Part shown: piece by piece, positions 38,451-51,120 of the stretch
How positions within the stretch are numbered: position 1 is the first letter of the stretch
Layout: every line of letters begins with the position of its first letter
NCBI GenBank assembly: GCA_025350625.1
Contig: JANXXL010000116.1
Coordinates: 1-64,000, forward strand
Length of the DNA stretch: 64,000 bases
From: Bryobacterales bacterium
GTDB taxonomy: Bacteria; Acidobacteriota; Terriglobia; Bryobacterales; Bryobacteraceae
Reading direction: 5' to 3'
Program-made: the position numbers and the translations under genes
The notes under the pieces: model-generated
What the model was told of the DNA's origin: nothing
The model's database searches: none
The model's input: the letters and a program-made list of their open reading frames with translations, nothing else

Positions 38451-38681
38451 ATGACCAAGGATCGCCTCACCCGCATCACCATCGACGACGCCCAGTGCGG
38501 CGGCCGTCCGTGTGTTCGCGGCATGAGAATCCGCGTGACCGACATCCTCGAATTGTTGAGCGCCGGAGCCAGCATTGAAGAAATTCTACAGGACTATCCC
38601 GGCCTTGAACGCGAAGACATCCTTGCGTCAATTGAGTATGCCGCCCACCAGACCGATCACGCTATCCTCCTGTCCGCGTGA
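38451..38681 (+). CDS. DUF433-family antitoxin-like protein
   Basis: 76 aa; CGGRPCVRGMRIRVTDILELLSAGASIEEILQDYP. Confidence 0.9.
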   Translation: MTKDRLTRITIDDAQCGGRPCVRGMRIRVTDILELLSAGASIEEILQDYPGLEREDILASIEYAAHQTDHAILLSA

Positions 38682-39007
38682 AGTTCCTCGTCGACAATCA
38701 ACTCCCTCCGGCACTGGCCCGCTTCATCTCCGAAGAATTCCGGACCGAAACGATGCACGTAGTTGACGTCGGTCTTCGAGAAAGTAGTGACGCAGACGTG
38801 TGGGGCTATTCTTCCCTGAATGGCTTCGTACTGATTTCCAAGGACGATGACTTCGCGACTCTATACTCAAAGAGTCCTTCAGCCGGGCTGCTTTGGGTCC
38901 GACTGGGAAACTGTCGGCGAGTCGTCCTGTTGAAAGTCTTCAAGGAGCAGTGGCCGAGAATTCTAGAGCGATTCGAGAACGGCGAGAGGTTCGTCGAGCT
39001 TCGTTGA
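38678..39007 (+). CDS. DUF5615 PIN-like toxin
   Basis: 109 aa; MKFLVDNQLPPALARFISEEF...; ATGA-type overlap with DUF433. Confidence 0.88.
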   Translation: MKFLVDNQLPPALARFISEEFRTETMHVVDVGLRESSDADVWGYSSLNGFVLISKDDDFATLYSKSPSAGLLWVRLGNCRRVVLLKVFKEQWPRILERFENGERFVELR

Positions 39008-43079: not shown

Positions 43080-44432
43080 ATGAGCCAAGTGAGCGAGGCG
43101 ACAGCCCGTTATCACAAATTAATCGAAAGTGAACCGTACATTGACCTGGCATGGGCCGAGGCGCTGCAACAGCGCCTGCGCGCCGAAAAGCTAGTCAGCC
43201 GGCCCCTGTCACCGGTGCTGCGGCCCCACTTTCTAACCACCCGCGACTATGCCATCCTCGGCAAAGCCGCCGCGACGGTATTTTCCGCCATCGACCGCGC
43301 CGAGCAAATGATTCTGGCCACGCCCGCCTTGCTTACGCGCATGCAGTTGCTGCCCGCCGAGCGCATGCTGGCCGCAGTCGAGCCGGGCTATTCCTCGCAA
43401 GCCCTCTCCGGTTTGCTCGACGCGAACCTGCACAACGGCTCCACGCATTTCATCGGACACCGCGTGGGCGCGCCTTCGAGCGTCATCTACAGCGACCTGC
43501 TGGCCGACATCTATTACGACGCCCCGCCCGTCAAAGAATTCCGCAAGAAACATAAGCTCTCAAAACTCGGCGGCACTAAGGCACTCACGCAGGCGATTCT
43601 CAAAGCCTACAAGGAATTCGGCGGCAAAAACAAAAAACCGTCCATCGCGTTCGTCGAAACCCGCGCCCCTTTTCAGCCCGTCGATTCGAGCGAGAACGCC
43701 CTGCTAGCCGAACAGCTCCGCCGCGATGGATTTCAGGCGGATGTGGTATCGCCCGAACAGCTCGAATACAAGAACGGCCAGTTGCGCCGCGGCGATATGG
43801 TCATCGATATCGTCTACCGCTGCGTGCGCGTGCATGAATTCCTGGTGCGCTTCGACCTCAACCACGCCCTGGTCCGCGCTTATAAAGATCGCGCCGTGTG
43901 CATGGTAAACAGCTTCCGGTCTGAGGTAGCCGCCAAGCGCAGCATGTTCGATCTGCTGACCGACGACTCCGTCACCGCCAAGTTCCCCGCCATCGAGCGC
44001 AAAGCCATCAAGGATTTCATTCCCTGGACCCGCATGGTGCAAGCCGCCAAGACCACCTATAAGAACCACACCGTGGATCTGCCGGACTTCGTCATGAAGC
44101 ACCGCAATAAGCTGGTGCTGAAGCCCAACGACGAAACCTCCGATCAGAACACCTTCCGCGGCGCCGAGCTCGACGAACTAGGCTGGGAAAAAGCCCTGCG
44201 CCAGGCGATGCGCAGCCCCTACGTAGTGCAGGAAGTAGCCGACCCCGCGCGCGCGGTCTTCCCGCTGTTGCAATACGGCAGCCTGGTGATGAAGGAAATG
44301 CAAGTGGAGGTTCACCCGCATTTCTTCGGCGGCAAAATCCACGGCGCCTCGAGTTGGCTGCACGTGGCCGGCTCGTCCGGCTTTTCCACGCTCTCCGGCC
44401 TCGCCCCGACATTCCTGCTGGAATCGAAGTAA
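43080..44432 (+). CDS. Circularly permuted ATP-grasp-like protein
   Basis: 450 aa; NKLVLKPNDETSDQNTFRG, YVVQEVADPARA, C-terminal GFSTLSGLAPTFLL. Confidence 0.6.
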   Translation: MSQVSEATARYHKLIESEPYIDLAWAEALQQRLRAEKLVSRPLSPVLRPHFLTTRDYAILGKAAATVFSAIDRAEQMILATPALLTRMQLLPAERMLAAVEPGYSSQALSGLLDANLHNGSTHFIGHRVGAPSSVIYSDLLADIYYDAPPVKEFRKKHKLSKLGGTKALTQAILKAYKEFGGKNKKPSIAFVETRAPFQPVDSSENALLAEQLRRDGFQADVVSPEQLEYKNGQLRRGDMVIDIVYRCVRVHEFLVRFDLNHALVRAYKDRAVCMVNSFRSEVAAKRSMFDLLTDDSVTAKFPAIERKAIKDFIPWTRMVQAAKTTYKNHTVDLPDFVMKHRNKLVLKPNDETSDQNTFRGAELDELGWEKALRQAMRSPYVVQEVADPARAVFPLLQYGSLVMKEMQVEVHPHFFGGKIHGASSWLHVAGSSGFSTLSGLAPTFLLESK

Positions 44433-44462
44433 GCCCGCAGTCGCGTAATCCAAAGTGGCCAT

Positions 44463-44481
44463 TTTGTCTATAATAGACAAA
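44463..44481. promoter_or_regulatory. Palindromic operator overlapping a -10 box of the Phd-PIN module
   Basis: TTTGTCTA-TAA-TAGACAAA, perfect 8-bp arms; contains TATAAT at 44469-44474; followed by AGGAGG. Confidence 0.65.
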
Positions 44482-44499
44482 GGAGGCATTTTTGGATTT

Positions 44500-44745
44500 A
44501 TGCGCTATGTGACCGCCACAGATGCGAAGCAACAGCTCGCAGCGCTTCTCGACGCCGCCCAGCGCGAACCGGTGGTCATCCGCCGTCAGAAGCGCGATAT
44601 CGCGGTGATTCTTTCGGCGGAGGAGTACGACCGCTTGCGCGCTTTCAACGTCGCTGAGTTTAACCATTTCTGCGATCGCGTGGCGGGCAAAGCGGCGGCG
44701 CGCGGATTGACGGCGAGAAAGCTACAGCAGATTCTTCACGACTGA
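44500..44745 (+). CDS. Phd/YefM-type antitoxin
   Basis: 82 codons; MRYVTATDAKQQLAALLDAAQREPVVIRRQKRDIAVILSAEEYDRL. Confidence 0.88.
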   Translation: MRYVTATDAKQQLAALLDAAQREPVVIRRQKRDIAVILSAEEYDRLRAFNVAEFNHFCDRVAGKAAARGLTARKLQQILHD

Positions 44746-44756
44746 CGCCGAATTCC

Positions 44757-45167
44757 ATGGCGAAACGTGCGCGACGCATCGTGTTCGACACCAATGCGCT
44801 CATCAGCCGCCTGCTGCTTCCTCGGTCCGTCCCCGGCCATGCTGTTAGCAAGGCTGTCAACGCAGGCCAATTGCTGGTTTCCGAAGCGACTCTTGGCGAA
44901 TTGGCCGATGTGCTGGCCCGATCCAAGTTCGCTCCTTACGTCACGATCCAGGACCGGCAGCAGTTCATCCGCTTACTAGGCAGAGTGGCGGAGATGGTGC
45001 CCATCACACACACGATTCGAGCCTGCCGCGATCCGAAGGATGACATGTTCCTGGAACTTGCTGTAAATGGCGAAGCCCAGTTCATTGTCACCGCCGATAA
45101 GGACCTATTAGTTCTCAACCCGTTTCGTGAGATCCCGATCATTACGCCGGCCCAGTTGTTGAGTTAG
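44757..45167 (+). CDS. PIN-domain toxin
   Basis: 136 aa; RIVFDTNALISRLLLP, CRDPKDDMFLELA, DKDLL. Confidence 0.9.
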   Translation: MAKRARRIVFDTNALISRLLLPRSVPGHAVSKAVNAGQLLVSEATLGELADVLARSKFAPYVTIQDRQQFIRLLGRVAEMVPITHTIRACRDPKDDMFLELAVNGEAQFIVTADKDLLVLNPFREIPIITPAQLLS

Positions 45168-45182
45168 CATCCTGCGTGGCGC

Positions 45183-46133
45183 TCATAGCGTGTCGTCCTT
45201 CAGGGTCTCCACACTCACCTTTGCTCTAAGATTCGCCACGCCCGGAGTTCCTCGTTCATCGGCGACGGTGAACGCCACTGCATCGTCGAGCCAGTCGTGC
45301 GCGGTGCCATCGGGGTCGTGCGCAGCAAGGGTCAGCGTATAAGGCTGCGGACACAAGTCGCAGAGGAACTGGAAAACGACAGTCATCGTCTCACCCGCAG
45401 TCCGCGGACCCACTGTGACGTGTTCGAGCTCGGTATTGGTGCCGTATACTTCAAAGCCGATCTGCGTGCGGATCAGCATGCCGATCACCGGCTCGCTCAC
45501 CGGCTCGTGGAAGCGAACGGTGGCGCGGACGCTCACGTATTCGCCGCTCTTCCACACGATGGTGGGTTGGCCGTTGGCGCCCAGCGTCTCGATGGAGAGA
45601 ACTTCGGCGCGTCCGTCGCCGCGCCGCGAGGAGGGCGCGAAGCGCGGCGGTATGGTCTCGCCCCAAGTGCGCACCTGATCGGCCACGAAGCGCCGGTAGC
45701 GGGTCATGGTTTCGCGCGGATCGCCTTTGGCGGCGATCTCGCCGGCTTCGAGCCACCACACCTCGTCGCACAGCGTTTCGAGCAGGCGATCCTCGTGCGA
45801 TGCCAGCAAAACCGTGGTGCCGGCGCGGCGTAAGCGGTCGAGTCCAATGAGTGTCCGGGTGCGTACCAGCGCATCCTGCGTGGCCAGCGCCTGATCGAGC
45901 GCCAGCACGTCTGAAGGGGCGAGATTCAGCGGCTCGCCCAGCGCAACCAAGCGCCGCGCGGTTCCCGCTTTCACTTCGCCCTGCTCCGCCTGCATCACGC
46001 CGCCGGCCAGCTTGAGCAACTCGGTAACGCCGGAGTTCTTCCCTCCGATCACGCCAATGATCGCCCCCGCAGGTGCGCTGACGGTCACACCATTCAAAGG
46101 CCCCGCGGAGACGTTGCGAAATTCAATCGACAT
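45183..46133 (-). CDS. Degenerate Wzt-like ABC protein (pseudo-ATPase) with Wzt C-terminal-like domain
   Basis: 316 aa; Wzt-like order but Walker A is GGKNSGVT, signature/helical region missing, Walker B VLALDQ; C-terminal carbohydrate-binding-like domain. Confidence 0.75.
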   Translation of the reverse strand: MSIEFRNVSAGPLNGVTVSAPAGAIIGVIGGKNSGVTELLKLAGGVMQAEQGEVKAGTARRLVALGEPLNLAPSDVLALDQALATQDALVRTRTLIGLDRLRRAGTTVLLASHEDRLLETLCDEVWWLEAGEIAAKGDPRETMTRYRRFVADQVRTWGETIPPRFAPSSRRGDGRAEVLSIETLGANGQPTIVWKSGEYVSVRATVRFHEPVSEPVIGMLIRTQIGFEVYGTNTELEHVTVGPRTAGETMTVVFQFLCDLCPQPYTLTLAAHDPDGTAHDWLDDAVAFTVADERGTPGVANLRAKVSVETLKDDTL

Positions 46134-46210: not shown

Positions 46211-48823
46211 TTATTTCCTGAGCGCAGTTCGCCAGTTGACGACGATGTTGACCGGCGACGATGTCGCTTCTTCGAGCGCGGTGTTGATCAGGAAGCGCTG
46301 ACCGTCGAGGGACACGTCGTAGCGCCACGCAACGCTGGGGCCGCCGCCGGTGCCGCCCAGAATAGTGGTGCGGAACAAGGCTTGCGGAACACCCAACTGA
46401 AATGTCGAGGCTCCGGTGACGGGCACCGCCATCAGCGTCGTGTCAGGAGCGAAGTAAAACAGTTCCTTGCCATCGCGTCGCCAACGGGGCTGGCTGCCAC
46501 CGCCATTCGAGACCGGCCATTTCCCGCCGGAGGACATCGGAAACGGCCGCACATATACTTCCTTGGTTCCCGTCTCATCGGAGGTATAAACCACCCAGCG
46601 CCCGTCCGGCGAGAATTGGGCCTGACCCTCGGAAAAAGGCGTGACCAGGTAGGGGACCGGCTTGTGGTCACCCTCCATGGGAAGCACCCATAAATCGAGG
46701 CCGGTCCCGTTCCCGCGCTGCGAGAACAACAGGGAACGGCCGTCGTGGGACCAGTCCATGGGCGTCTTGGTTTCGGCTGAATGCAGCAGCAGTTCCGCTT
46801 GGCCTGCGCCATTCGCGGGCTTGCGAAAGAGATCCGCCGACTGCCCCCCGCCGGGAGCATAGGCGATCTGGGCGCCATCGGGCGACCAGGTGCCGTTGCC
46901 CGCGCCCGCTCCATCGAAGGTAAGCCGCGTGTTAGCGCCGCGCGCCAGATCGAGCAGCCACACCACCCAGGTCCCGCGTTCGTTCACGCGGCCTTCGGCC
47001 ACTCGCGTTCCATCGGGCGAGAGCGACAACTCGTCGCGCGCGGCAGGCTCGCCCGCGTGCCCGACGACTTTCCCCTGCCGGTCATACCACGTCAACTGGC
47101 GGCTGTTACCTCCCGTGACCGCATACGCCAGCAGGCCGTTGGCCGAGACCGAAAACAATCCGGCAAAAGTATCGGCGCTCACGCGGTCGGCAATTTGAGT
47201 TGCGCTTCCGGTCAATTCGAGGCGGCCAGCGTCGAACGGCTGGGCGAGCAGCGCCTCGCCCCGTTGAAACAGGAGATAGCCATCTGATGCGCCCGCCGGC
47301 GGGGCGTAAATGACTCCGGAAGGACTGGCTAATAAACGCTTCTTATCCTGCTCCGCCGGCTTGGCGTCCAGAGAGCCAAAGTAAATGCCGGTTCTGTCTT
47401 CGCTCCCCGCCAGGCGGTAATACAGAAAGTGTTTTCCATCGGGCAGGAAGAAGGGACGGCCCTGTCCCAGTTCAGACATTTGCGGATCGAGCGCGGTAAC
47501 TACCGACACATCGCCCCCGCCGGCCGGGACCCGCGACAAAGTGCCGTTGGTGCCGTAAAGAATTACGTCCTGAGGGCTCCAGGAAATTCCGGGTGCGGGA
47601 GGGGCGTAGGTCGCGAGCGTTTGCGGAGTTCCTCCGGCGATGTCGATCTTCTTGACATTGCCTTGCGCGAGAAAAGCCACATATTGGCTGTCAGGGGACC
47701 ACGCCACGTCCTGGTTCACGCCCTGGGTTCCGGGCAGCTCCCGCACCTGGAGCGAATCCATCATGCGCACCCACAGGGTGTTGCGTCCGTCCTGACCACG
47801 GGCATTGATCACCGCTTTGCGTCCGTCGGGCGACATGGTAAAGGTGTTGAGGGTGGTCTTGGGCGGTGGAAAGATTTCAAACCGCATCTGTTCGAGCGCG
47901 GCGGGCTTTTCGCGAAAGTGAATGAAGCCTAGCGCGGCGGTTGCGATCAGCAAGAGTGCAGCTACGGCGGGCCAGAGCCAATTCATTTTTGAGGAGGCCA
48001 CCGCCACCGGCTGCGCGGAGGGAACGCCGGCCGGGGGCACCTCCTCGAGCAACCTCCAGACATCGCCGATATCGCGCAGACGTTTTCGCGGATCTTTCTG
48101 CAGACAATCCGCGAGCAAACGCTGGACGCTGGAGGGCACATCGCTCAAGTCGGGCTGATCGCGGATCACCTTGGCCAGAATTTCGCCGACATCGTCGCCG
48201 CCGAAGAGGCGCTTGCCGGTGATCAGCTCATGCAGCACCACGCCGAAAGCGAAGATGTCGGCGCGCTTGTCGGTGTCCTTGCCGCGGGCTTGCTCGGGGG
48301 CCATGTAGGAGGCGGTGCCGAGGATCATGCCGGCTTCGGTCATGCCCATGGTCAGCGTGGGCGAATGTTCGGCGCTCGAGCCCGCAGCGGCGGTCACCTT
48401 GGCGAGTCCGAAGTCGAGCACTTTTACAGTGCCGTCGGGTTTCAGCTTGATATTGGCGGGTTTGAGGTCGCGGTGCGTGATGCCTCTTTCGTGCGCGGCT
48501 TCGAGCGCGTCGGCAATCTGGTGGGCGATGCGGAGAGCGGCGTCGAGAGGCATCGGGCCTTTGGGCGACTCACCCTCGATATACTCCATGACCAGGTAGT
48601 TCGGGCCGACATCGTAAATCTGGCAGATATTCGGATGATTGAGCGCGGCGATGGCTTTGGCTTCGCGCTCGAAGCGCTCAGAGAACTGGGCGGCGGAAAC
48701 CTTGATGGCCACGTCGCGATTCAAGCGCGGATCGCGCGCGCGGTAGACCTCGCCCATGCCGCCCGCGCCGATGGGCGAGAGAATCTCATAGGGTCCCAGG
48801 TGGTCGCCGGCGGAAAGGGACAT
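46211..48823 (-). CDS. Serine/threonine protein kinase with TolB/WD40-like beta-propeller
   Basis: 870 aa; GAGGMGEVYRARD, HRDLKPANIKL, multiple SPDG/SPDS propeller repeats. Confidence 0.95.
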   Translation of the reverse strand: MSLSAGDHLGPYEILSPIGAGGMGEVYRARDPRLNRDVAIKVSAAQFSERFEREAKAIAALNHPNICQIYDVGPNYLVMEYIEGESPKGPMPLDAALRIAHQIADALEAAHERGITHRDLKPANIKLKPDGTVKVLDFGLAKVTAAAGSSAEHSPTLTMGMTEAGMILGTASYMAPEQARGKDTDKRADIFAFGVVLHELITGKRLFGGDDVGEILAKVIRDQPDLSDVPSSVQRLLADCLQKDPRKRLRDIGDVWRLLEEVPPAGVPSAQPVAVASSKMNWLWPAVAALLLIATAALGFIHFREKPAALEQMRFEIFPPPKTTLNTFTMSPDGRKAVINARGQDGRNTLWVRMMDSLQVRELPGTQGVNQDVAWSPDSQYVAFLAQGNVKKIDIAGGTPQTLATYAPPAPGISWSPQDVILYGTNGTLSRVPAGGGDVSVVTALDPQMSELGQGRPFFLPDGKHFLYYRLAGSEDRTGIYFGSLDAKPAEQDKKRLLASPSGVIYAPPAGASDGYLLFQRGEALLAQPFDAGRLELTGSATQIADRVSADTFAGLFSVSANGLLAYAVTGGNSRQLTWYDRQGKVVGHAGEPAARDELSLSPDGTRVAEGRVNERGTWVVWLLDLARGANTRLTFDGAGAGNGTWSPDGAQIAYAPGGGQSADLFRKPANGAGQAELLLHSAETKTPMDWSHDGRSLLFSQRGNGTGLDLWVLPMEGDHKPVPYLVTPFSEGQAQFSPDGRWVVYTSDETGTKEVYVRPFPMSSGGKWPVSNGGGSQPRWRRDGKELFYFAPDTTLMAVPVTGASTFQLGVPQALFRTTILGGTGGGPSVAWRYDVSLDGQRFLINTALEEATSSPVNIVVNWRTALRK

Positions 48824-48889
48824 TGCAAATAAGTTTACTCGATCATGAGTCCCTTCAGATATTCACGGCTGGCGTGAGACAGGTCGAAA

Positions 48890-49345
48890 TCAATTGGTTA
48901 AGCCCAGACTCTGGGCGGGCATGGTCGCGACGATCGGCGCCAGCGTGTAAGACCCGGAAATGCCGGGAATCCAGGTAATGGCCGGGACACCCGATACCTT
49001 CACTTGCAAGCGATAGTCGGCCGTTCCGGAAGTGCCAAGAGTCTGGTAGGTCACCTGGGAGGTCTGCAGCCCCAAAAAACCAGCGCCCCCGCCGGTGGGC
49101 GCAGTGGTCGAGTTGTAGACCAGATAATTTTTGATGGCAGTAGCGCTCCAGTTGTTGACCACCGCGCTTCTCGCCGTGATGCGCGCCCGCTCGGTGATAA
49201 ATTGCTGAATCATTAATATCCGTCCCATGTCCATGATGAAGAGCACCATGCCGAGCACGGTGAGCAGAACCAACGCCGATTCGAGTATGTTGGCGCCCTT
49301 CTGATTTTTTCGCCGGCGGTTCTTGCAACTCAATTTCAAAGTCAT
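48890..49345 (-). CDS. TadE-like pseudopilin
   Basis: 152 codons; KGANILESALVLLTVLGMVLFIMDMGR. Confidence 0.75.
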   Translation of the reverse strand: MTLKLSCKNRRRKNQKGANILESALVLLTVLGMVLFIMDMGRILMIQQFITERARITARSAVVNNWSATAIKNYLVYNSTTAPTGGGAGFLGLQTSQVTYQTLGTSGTADYRLQVKVSGVPAITWIPGISGSYTLAPIVATMPAQSLGLTN

Positions 49346-49370
49346 TTCCTTGTCCTTATTAACCGGCGCT

Positions 49371-49820
49371 TTAACAACCCGAACAATTGATTTGCCCGTA
49401 ATACTTAGTGGTCGCCCCGGGCTTATTGGGCAAGGTGAAAGAGGTGAACAACGCATTGATCGTGTAACCGGTGATGTTGACCGTGATATAGCGCGGCATA
49501 CCGTTCGCATCCGGGTGGTAGTTTACATTCACGTTGCTGGCCGTCAGATTCGGCACCAGCGTCTTGGCGCCGGCGGTTTCATCGCCATAGAGCACCATAT
49601 TTTTCAGGGTGGTGGTAAAGGCGCTGGTATTGCCCGTGTCGAACGCCAGCCGTGAGCCCAGCGCCGCGGCGTTGGAGGTGGATTCCAGCATGACGTTGTA
49701 TAAATAGTAGGCGTAGCCGATCTGGTACAAGCCGGAAAACACCATCCACAGAATGGACCAGCCCAAGGCGAACTCCAGCATGGCGTTGCCGCGTTCAGAT
49801 TTCGATTGTAAGGGTTTCAT
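49371..49820 (-). CDS. TadE-like pseudopilin
   Basis: 150 codons; ERGNAMLEFALGWSILWMVFSGLYQIGYAYYLYN. Confidence 0.75.
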   Translation of the reverse strand: MKPLQSKSERGNAMLEFALGWSILWMVFSGLYQIGYAYYLYNVMLESTSNAAALGSRLAFDTGNTSAFTTTLKNMVLYGDETAGAKTLVPNLTASNVNVNYHPDANGMPRYITVNITGYTINALFTSFTLPNKPGATTKYYGQINCSGC

Positions 49821-49944
49821 ATTTGCTCGTTTATTGGTAGAGGACATCCGAATACACCTTGGTGCTATCCGTTCCGCCGGAGCTGTTTCCGGTCAGGTTC
49901 GCAGGACCGATGTAGGTTGCGCAGATCCCTCCGGAACTTCCTGA

Positions 49945-51120
49945 CTAGGAAGTATCCAGAAGGAAATTCGCGAAGCCAAGCACGGTGGTGTGGGCGTTGT
50001 TGCCGTTTCCGCTCCAGGTTGCTCCGATCGCGACCGTAACCACGCGACGCCCATTGCCGGTGCCGGACGCCTTATATTGCGTCCAGGTGGTAGAAACGTC
50101 GTCTGTGTCCTGAAGCGCCCGGGTATCGAGGGCGTCGAAGATGGAGGAGCCGCGGTTCCCTGGAACGCCGCCCAGCGTGTCTCCGCTTGAGACCGAGGAG
50201 GGGTTGGAGTTGGGATTCGGATAACCCCCGGAAATGATCGCGCTGCGAACGTTGCTATTACTATTCCCTTCACCAATGTCTACGAACCCGTGCTCAGAGG
50301 GAGGCGAGCCTGGCACGATGAAACCGGCGTCGCCCGCGCAGGGGCTGTTGCCGTTTTTGGGCCACTTCAGCGAGTATTCGATGCCGGGGGTTAAGCCAAA
50401 GTTCGTGAGGTCGGCTTGGGTGTGAGCGTCGGGGGCAAAAGGCAGCAAACCACCGTTTGCGATTGTGTCCCCCGGCGCCTGACCGGCGGTTGCCGATGCG
50501 GTGATGGTATAAGCGTTTGAAATTCCCGGAAGCATGGGAAGAAAATTCAAGGGGACGTTCGCCGAAGCAGCGACTTTGATGAACCGGTAAGAATTAGTTG
50601 CCGGTGAACTGGCGGTAGTGTAATTGTCGTAGGTGCCTGTGAAGCTGGTGGCGTAACTGGTGGCGACAGTTGAAACGGTGGTGGAGTCAAAGTTGTATTT
50701 ATTCGGATTGGTGGCGCCACTAGGGCCGGTCAGCGCGGTGGCATTGGCTCCTTGCAGGCCAGTTTGGGTGCCGTCCATCTGTGCCGCGGCAGCAAGGGCG
50801 GAGGCATCGGCGAAAGTCTGCAGCTCATTCTTATAAACGAACATCCGGCCGAGGTCAACCGCTAATCCCAGCATTCCAAGCATCACGAACAGCGAAAGGC
50901 TGAGCAGGATAAGGCTAAAGCCTCGCTCGGCGCGTTTCCGAATAGGATGCCTGCGGCCGGCGTGGGTAATTATCTCAGCGGTGGGGGCCGGTCTCCCATT
51001 GTCAAGCCGCAGACAAAAGCCGTTAGAGTGCGCCCGCCGAAAAGGGGCGCTATCCCCCTTCGGCGTGCATTTACAGACAAGCGGTGGCCCAAGGGGCCGC
51101 GGCTCAGGAAGCCTAATCAT
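49945..51120 (-). CDS. TadG-like protein (ends at an in-frame amber codon)
   Basis: 391 aa; GGAGG-AAAA-ATG start; ERGFSLILLSLSLFVMLGMLGLAVDLGRMFVYKNELQTFADASALAAA. Confidence 0.8.
   Translation of the reverse strand: MIRLPEPRPLGPPLVCKCTPKGDSAPFRRAHSNGFCLRLDNGRPAPTAEIITHAGRRHPIRKRAERGFSLILLSLSLFVMLGMLGLAVDLGRMFVYKNELQTFADASALAAAAQMDGTQTGLQGANATALTGPSGATNPNKYNFDSTTVSTVATSYATSFTGTYDNYTTASSPATNSYRFIKVAASANVPLNFLPMLPGISNAYTITASATAGQAPGDTIANGGLLPFAPDAHTQADLTNFGLTPGIEYSLKWPKNGNSPCAGDAGFIVPGSPPSEHGFVDIGEGNSNSNVRSAIISGGYPNPNSNPSSVSSGDTLGGVPGNRGSSIFDALDTRALQDTDDVSTTWTQYKASGTGNGRRVVTVAIGATWSGNGNNAHTTVLGFANFLLDTS

Follow-up and report, generated by a model that had tools for sequence, protein, structure and literature searches.

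Bacteria of the order Bryobacterales (Acidobacteriota) encode a descendant of Wzt, here called pseudo-Wzt, in which the carbohydrate-binding domain (CBD) has been kept and the ATPase engine dismantled. Because this engineless form is retained across the order, and almost always together with one methyltransferase gene, it points to a glycan-reading protein that has not been described before and not to a broken gene. The gene analyzed here lies in a stretch of 64,000 nucleotides from a Bryobacterales bacterium (GCA_025350625.1, contig JANXXL010000116.1, positions 1 to 64,000), hereafter the window. We propose, with a probability of about 0.5, that the protein descends from a Wzt that has turned into a soluble, non-hydrolysing reader of the (probably methyl-)capped end of a glycan.

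A preliminary description, made from the sequence alone, had placed an intact frame of about 316 aa at 45,183-46,133. These coordinates are correct, and the strand, on which it was silent, is minus: the ATG is at 46,133, the stop codon occupies 45,183-45,185, and the 316 codons contain zero internal stops. The first 160 residues of the protein correspond to the core of an ABC nucleotide-binding domain (NBD) and the last 145 to a Wzt_C CBD. The latter (residues 168-311; 45,201-45,632, minus strand), which had been recognized earlier as an O-antigen-recognition domain in the C-terminal half, is matched by Pfam Wzt_C (PF14524) over residues 169-301 with 112.8 bits against a cut-off of 30.4 (E = 1.7e-32). 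For the N-terminal half, Pfam ABC_tran reaches 14.7 bits, under its 25-bit cut-off, and NCBIfam returns partial NBD matches (best 8e-14). The closest solved relative in a PDB sequence search is the Wzt of A. aeolicus (7k2t/8dku, 2e-20).

All of the individual motif states reported in the preliminary description are found in the protein (coordinates that follow are on the minus strand). The degenerate Walker A spans residues 27-41 (GVIGGKNSGVTELLK; 46,011-46,055) and reads GVIGGKNSGVTELL, with V36, followed by T37, at the GK[ST] lysine position that is K in 25/25 intact Wzts. At the excision junction (residues 64-75; 45,909-45,944), both alignments and the AlphaFold model show that the helical subdomain of ~80 residues is missing together with its YSSGM signature, the beta-strand at residues 60-63 leading through LGEPLNLAPS directly into the Walker B remnant VLALDQ (residues 76-81; 45,891-45,908). 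In this remnant D80 is kept and the catalytic Glu has become Q81. The H-loop Ser112-His113 (45,795-45,800) is retained within ASHE, its His being present in 72/83 rows of the family alignment, and the downstream motif WLEAGEIAAKGDP has survived as well. That every catalytic motif had been lost was therefore an overstatement, since the Walker B Asp and the H-loop His remain. Set against a Wzt ABC ATPase, the protein has the H-loop His (H113) and lacks a GxxGxGK[ST] Walker A, the helical subdomain with its signature and the catalytic Glu, and its gene has no cognate Wzm permease alongside; it lies outside the Wzt transporter ATPases and inside the Wzt_C domain family.

When 60 related genomes were searched, full-length orthologues with 63-79% identity were found in 20/22 other genomes of the same genus, and more distant pseudo-Wzts beyond the genus, elsewhere in the family and the order. 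The preliminary description had allowed that homologues of this architecture might not exist, or that the gene might be a private pseudogene or the product of a sequencing error; instead, related genomes share the architecture, and the same lesions recur in 20 of the 22 same-genus genomes and across an 83-row alignment. A scan of named genomes yielded 80 loci, with titles that are nearly all Bryobacterales, Bryobacteraceae, Solibacter or Acidobacteria/Terriglobia. Two titles look wrong: one locus (L072, CALQCC020000033.1) is labeled Bordetella parapertussis and has the content of a Bryobacteraceae-like MAG, and another (L124) is labeled Acidimicrobiia. When 297 genomes sampled across the phylum were scanned, only the window's genus gave full-length matches; all others lacked the first ~60 profile positions and, like intact Wzts, lay in larger open frames.

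In the 83-row alignment the position of the catalytic Glu is occupied by H (40), Q (30), R (8) or other residues (5) and never by E, and the helical subdomain is absent from every member, while K is found at the Walker A position in 24 rows and GK[ST] in 13. The whole family has thus lost the helical subdomain and the catalytic Glu, whereas the loss of Walker A is not family-wide. In a control set of 25 intact Wzts of the phylum, K, D, E and H are conserved in 25/25. On a tree, pseudo-Wzts group in a single clade, with six intact Wzts outside it (SH-aLRT 99), and the Walker A lysine requires at least nine changes. Alignment and tree together make it most likely that the helical subdomain and the Glu were lost first and once, and that the P-loop decayed later and repeatedly. 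The clade also carries a motif of its own, DEVWW (residues 123-127; 45,753-45,767, minus strand), present as DE[VIL]WW or EEVWW in 82/83 members; as W126 occurs in 0/25 intact Wzts, the motif was apparently acquired within the pseudo-Wzt clade.

The dN/dS comparison that had been suggested as a check was made with YN00 on ten close pairs within the genus, some of which gave an NBD value only. In the NBD remnant dN/dS is 0.02-0.11 and in the CBD 0.02-0.055, so that the remnant is under strong purifying selection. Further erosion is seen elsewhere in the order, where in about 27 of 92 members the match to the profile starts at position 51 or beyond, with no recognizable P-loop region. Twenty loci, mostly of this strongly eroded type, were read directly; their frames are open and their hinge and CBD well conserved, down to an extreme of 249 codons with no recognizable P-loop or Walker B. 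Along the protein, the mean top-residue frequency climbs from 0.60 through 0.64 and 0.68 to 0.73 in the CBD. The status of pseudo-ATPase, as predicted from sequence, is well supported: membership of one clade, open frames, low dN/dS, retention of the motifs by intact homologues and the lack of a permease neighbor all strongly favor this part of the preliminary proposal.

An AlphaFold2 model of the window protein, built from 28 sequences (mean pLDDT 89.8), was compared with A. aeolicus Wzt, as had likewise been suggested. The model lacks the helical subdomain, in place of which a short loop joins strands 60-63 and 76-80, and its best structural match in the PDB is full-length A. aeolicus Wzt (E 8.4e-23). 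The modeled CBD aligns with 8dky at a target-normalised TM of 0.79, and the isolated CBDs 8dky, 6o14 and 2r5o together give 0.72-0.79. In A. aeolicus Wzt, the NBD carries the CBD dimer on its hinge and H-loop helices, and the cap pocket comprises Asn313, His350, Leu300, Thr346, Ala348 and Trp362 (PMC9445017). By model and residue mapping, a hinge helix at residues 139-158 of pseudo-Wzt (45,660-45,719, minus strand) is the equivalent of the helix through which the NBD of that protein touches its CBD.

Among the pocket equivalents, N233, T268 and W281 are found in 83/83 rows and A270 and H272 in 81/83; the counterpart of Leu300, L220, is M or L among pseudo-Wzts, and A. aeolicus R302 corresponds to R222, present in 83/83. 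Of the six side-chain contacts that were mapped, five fall in the class with at least 97% conservation (P = 0.009 within the domain). As the mapped cap contacts are near-invariant, the pocket, as judged from the alignment, is retained under constraint, for a ligand that is putative. N233, A270 and W281 are common in intact Wzts too (n = 25), and much of the pocket is therefore inherited, not newly selected; the position of H272 is Q in 13/25 intact Wzts and H in 9/25. The trap loop of pseudo-Wzt is three residues shorter. A. aeolicus Tyr233, a glycan contact within the NBD, was considered as a further conserved contact and dropped, as it aligns to R147, which is not conserved.

The usual gene order in the genus is an S9 peptidase, a beta-helix protein and pseudo-Wzt, followed by a convergent ATP-grasp-like gene and TypA. 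The beta-helix protein (PF13229) has a lipobox-like N-terminus, and in the genus its gene often lies 16-65 bp upstream of pseudo-Wzt on the same strand; in other genera, the beta-helix gene and a gene for a SAM methyltransferase lie divergent from pseudo-Wzt. In the fetched flanks of the 80 named loci, the beta-helix gene is present in 58 and the methyltransferase in 47. No permease adjoins pseudo-Wzt in the window or in the syntenic loci read, as first reported for the window gene, and no glycan-synthesis operon surrounds the window gene. The beta-helix gene is absent from the window genome, where a protein kinase gene lies instead, 77 bp upstream of pseudo-Wzt. Together with TadE/TadG-like genes, this Ser/Thr kinase, which has PD40 repeats, fills, as if inserted, the interval held by the beta-helix gene in relatives (46,211-51,120, minus strand).

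Several plus-strand genes lie on the other side. A Phd/YefM antitoxin and PIN_3 toxin, a type II toxin-antitoxin pair (44,455-45,167), are convergent with pseudo-Wzt and end 15 bp from it; the pair is not conserved at this position in relatives. A DUF433/DUF5615 (PIN-like) pair at 38,451-39,007 is a second likely toxin-antitoxin locus. Between them, 43,080-44,432 encodes a conserved uncharacterised protein of 450 aa with a weak match to a circularly permuted ATP-grasp (17.7 bits, cut-off 32), which is syntenic with pseudo-Wzt in 34 of the 80 named loci.

Pseudo-Wzt co-occurs with a two-domain methyltransferase that has a SAM domain (PF08241, 1e-19) and two C-terminal beta domains (model pLDDT 91.6). 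Across the window genome and 60 relatives, this methyltransferase is found in 31/32 genomes with pseudo-Wzt and in 0/29 others, and the beta-helix gene in 22/32 and 0/29, respectively; two members of the genus that lack pseudo-Wzt (G012 and G022, 95-96% complete) lack the methyltransferase too. Of 150 genomes of the order, 89 have both genes, 3 pseudo-Wzt only, 6 the methyltransferase only and 52 neither (Fisher P 1e-29, a statistic that ignores relatedness). Around the methyltransferase of the six methyltransferase-only genomes, on contigs of which several are short, no pseudo-Wzt remnant was seen. The type of Wzm permease that lies near some pseudo-Wzts does not follow this pattern of co-occurrence.

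In the window genome the methyltransferase (L146) is on another contig, and at several loci of the genus (L147, L150 and L154 among them) the unlinked methyltransferase gene lies directly downstream of a gene with a Ysc84/SYLF domain. At three loci (L161, L162 and L154, in G003, G006 and G011), all in genomes without the beta-helix gene, the methyltransferase lacks the nearly invariant N-terminal segment WNxRAxEDAxYYVAFG; G010 and G013, also without the beta-helix gene, keep it. Two candidate assignments were rejected. The fold search lends no support to a WbdD-like methyltransferase, the best matches being small-molecule/peptide methyltransferases, and the beta-helix gene, missing from the window genome and several sisters, is a frequent partner only, not an essential one.

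In O-antigen export, the methyltransferase-containing WbdD caps the chain end and the CBD of Wzt reads the cap (PMC3482155). We infer that the ligand of pseudo-Wzt is a glycan, that its cap is methyl and that the methyltransferase is the writer. Its ancestor would have been a Wzt, the ATPase/reader subunit of Wzm-Wzt exporters. The sequences show that the whole helical subdomain, carrier of the signature and of permease coupling, has gone along with the catalytic Glu, that the P-loop Lys was lost later and repeatedly, that the remainder is strongly constrained, and that the Wzt_C domain has been kept with its pocket side chains and with the hinge helix, which supports this domain in A. aeolicus Wzt. 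Working as a strand-swapped CBD dimer, pseudo-Wzt would bind a lipid-linked glycan in the cytosol at its non-reducing end, which would be capped and probably O-methylated. The co-inherited two-domain SAM methyltransferase would be the likely cap writer or a binding partner, and the co-encoded, exported beta-helix protein would likely act on the same glycan outside. Its task would be to gate or count completed chains, or to pass them on, without pumping, as a form of length or quality control. A writer-type gene and a reader domain are inherited together, but motor and permease coupling are gone; a cytosolic reader in chain-end quality control or hand-over is the most economical reading, and the glycan-cap sensor or adaptor role suggested at the outset is consistent with the conserved pocket residues and the methyltransferase co-occurrence. 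More tentatively, these genes may constitute an order-wide envelope module, in which the methyltransferase writes the cap, a Wzt devoid of its motor reads it and hydrolyses no ATP, and the exported beta-helix protein acts on the product, and in which erosion of the NBD could be traced step by step away from a CBD still under selection.

One alternative is that pseudo-Wzt serves in trans as a CBD subunit of an active Wzm-Wzt, either by a strand swap between its own CBD and that of an intact Wzt or as the CBD for a CBD-less Wzt, and so adds a second cap specificity. Separately expressed CBDs do act in trans, restoring export by CBD-less WzmWzt (PMC9445017); the window genome encodes an intact Wzt of 447 aa; and in one relative (L040) an NBD-only Wzt and a Wzm lie ~6 kb from pseudo-Wzt. 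We nevertheless consider this rather unlikely: several genomes with pseudo-Wzt (G000-G003, G008, G015 and G020) have no high-similarity match to this Wzm type, which is present in genomes that lack pseudo-Wzt (G012, G022 and G023), pseudo-Wzt is not genetically linked to a permease, and several pseudo-Wzt genomes (G000, G003 and G011 among them) do not have the closest intact Wzt, of ~400 aa. Supply of a CBD to the nearby NBD-only Wzt/Wzm was rejected, as that permease does not co-occur with pseudo-Wzt.

Exaptation for a role that does not involve glycans, such as a scaffold for the methyltransferase or a part in envelope lipid homeostasis, is a doubtful explanation. The clade-specific DEVWW, absent from intact Wzts, would suit it, as would the Ysc84/SYLF lipid-binding gene that adjoins the methyltransferase locus in the genus and an LpxA-like gene 31 bp upstream of pseudo-Wzt in one relative (L046), yet the pocket residues have stayed near-invariant while the NBD eroded. 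A nucleotide switch that binds ATP and does not hydrolyse it is very improbable: 13/83 rows keep GK[ST] and most keep the Walker B Asp and the H-loop His, but the lysine is lost in ~70%, with its repeated changes on the tree, the P-loop region is gone from the most eroded members, and no signature motif is left to complete a sandwich site. Finally, although catalytic motifs are lost and the N-terminus of some genera erodes progressively, an assembly error or a pseudogene in decay can practically be dismissed given open frames in dozens of independently assembled genomes, the low dN/dS across the genus and conserved synteny.

Among known systems, heterodimeric ABC exporters have degenerate NBDs whose catalytic Glu is inactive, like that of pseudo-Wzt, but these keep the helical subdomain, the signature and a membrane partner. 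Pseudo-Wzt resembles A. aeolicus Wzt (7k2t/8dku) in domain order, NBD core fold, hinge helix and a Wzt_C domain with cap-pocket residues, and differs from it in having no P-loop Lys, helical subdomain or signature, catalytic Glu or permease partner gene. It shares the jelly-roll cap-binding domain with isolated Wzt CBDs (8dky, 6o14 and 2r5o; TM as given above); those, however, are laboratory fragments, whereas pseudo-Wzt is a natural CBD on a gutted NBD. As with WbdD (PMC3482155), a methyltransferase is paired with a Wzt_C reader, but the one that accompanies pseudo-Wzt lacks a kinase domain, and its acceptor is putative. Neither motorless Wzts nor standalone Wzt_C proteins were found in the literature searched.

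The family splits the two jobs of Wzt, keeping the reading of the cap and discarding the drive for export, and provides a natural series that starts at intact Wzt, passes through an NBD devoid of the helical subdomain and ends at proteins that are almost CBD only. Annotation of such proteins by pipelines as 'ABC transporter ATPase' would be wrong. The methyltransferase is a named candidate partner in a poorly studied, abundant soil group, and the family offers a test of whether a cap reader by itself can control the length or quality of a glycan.
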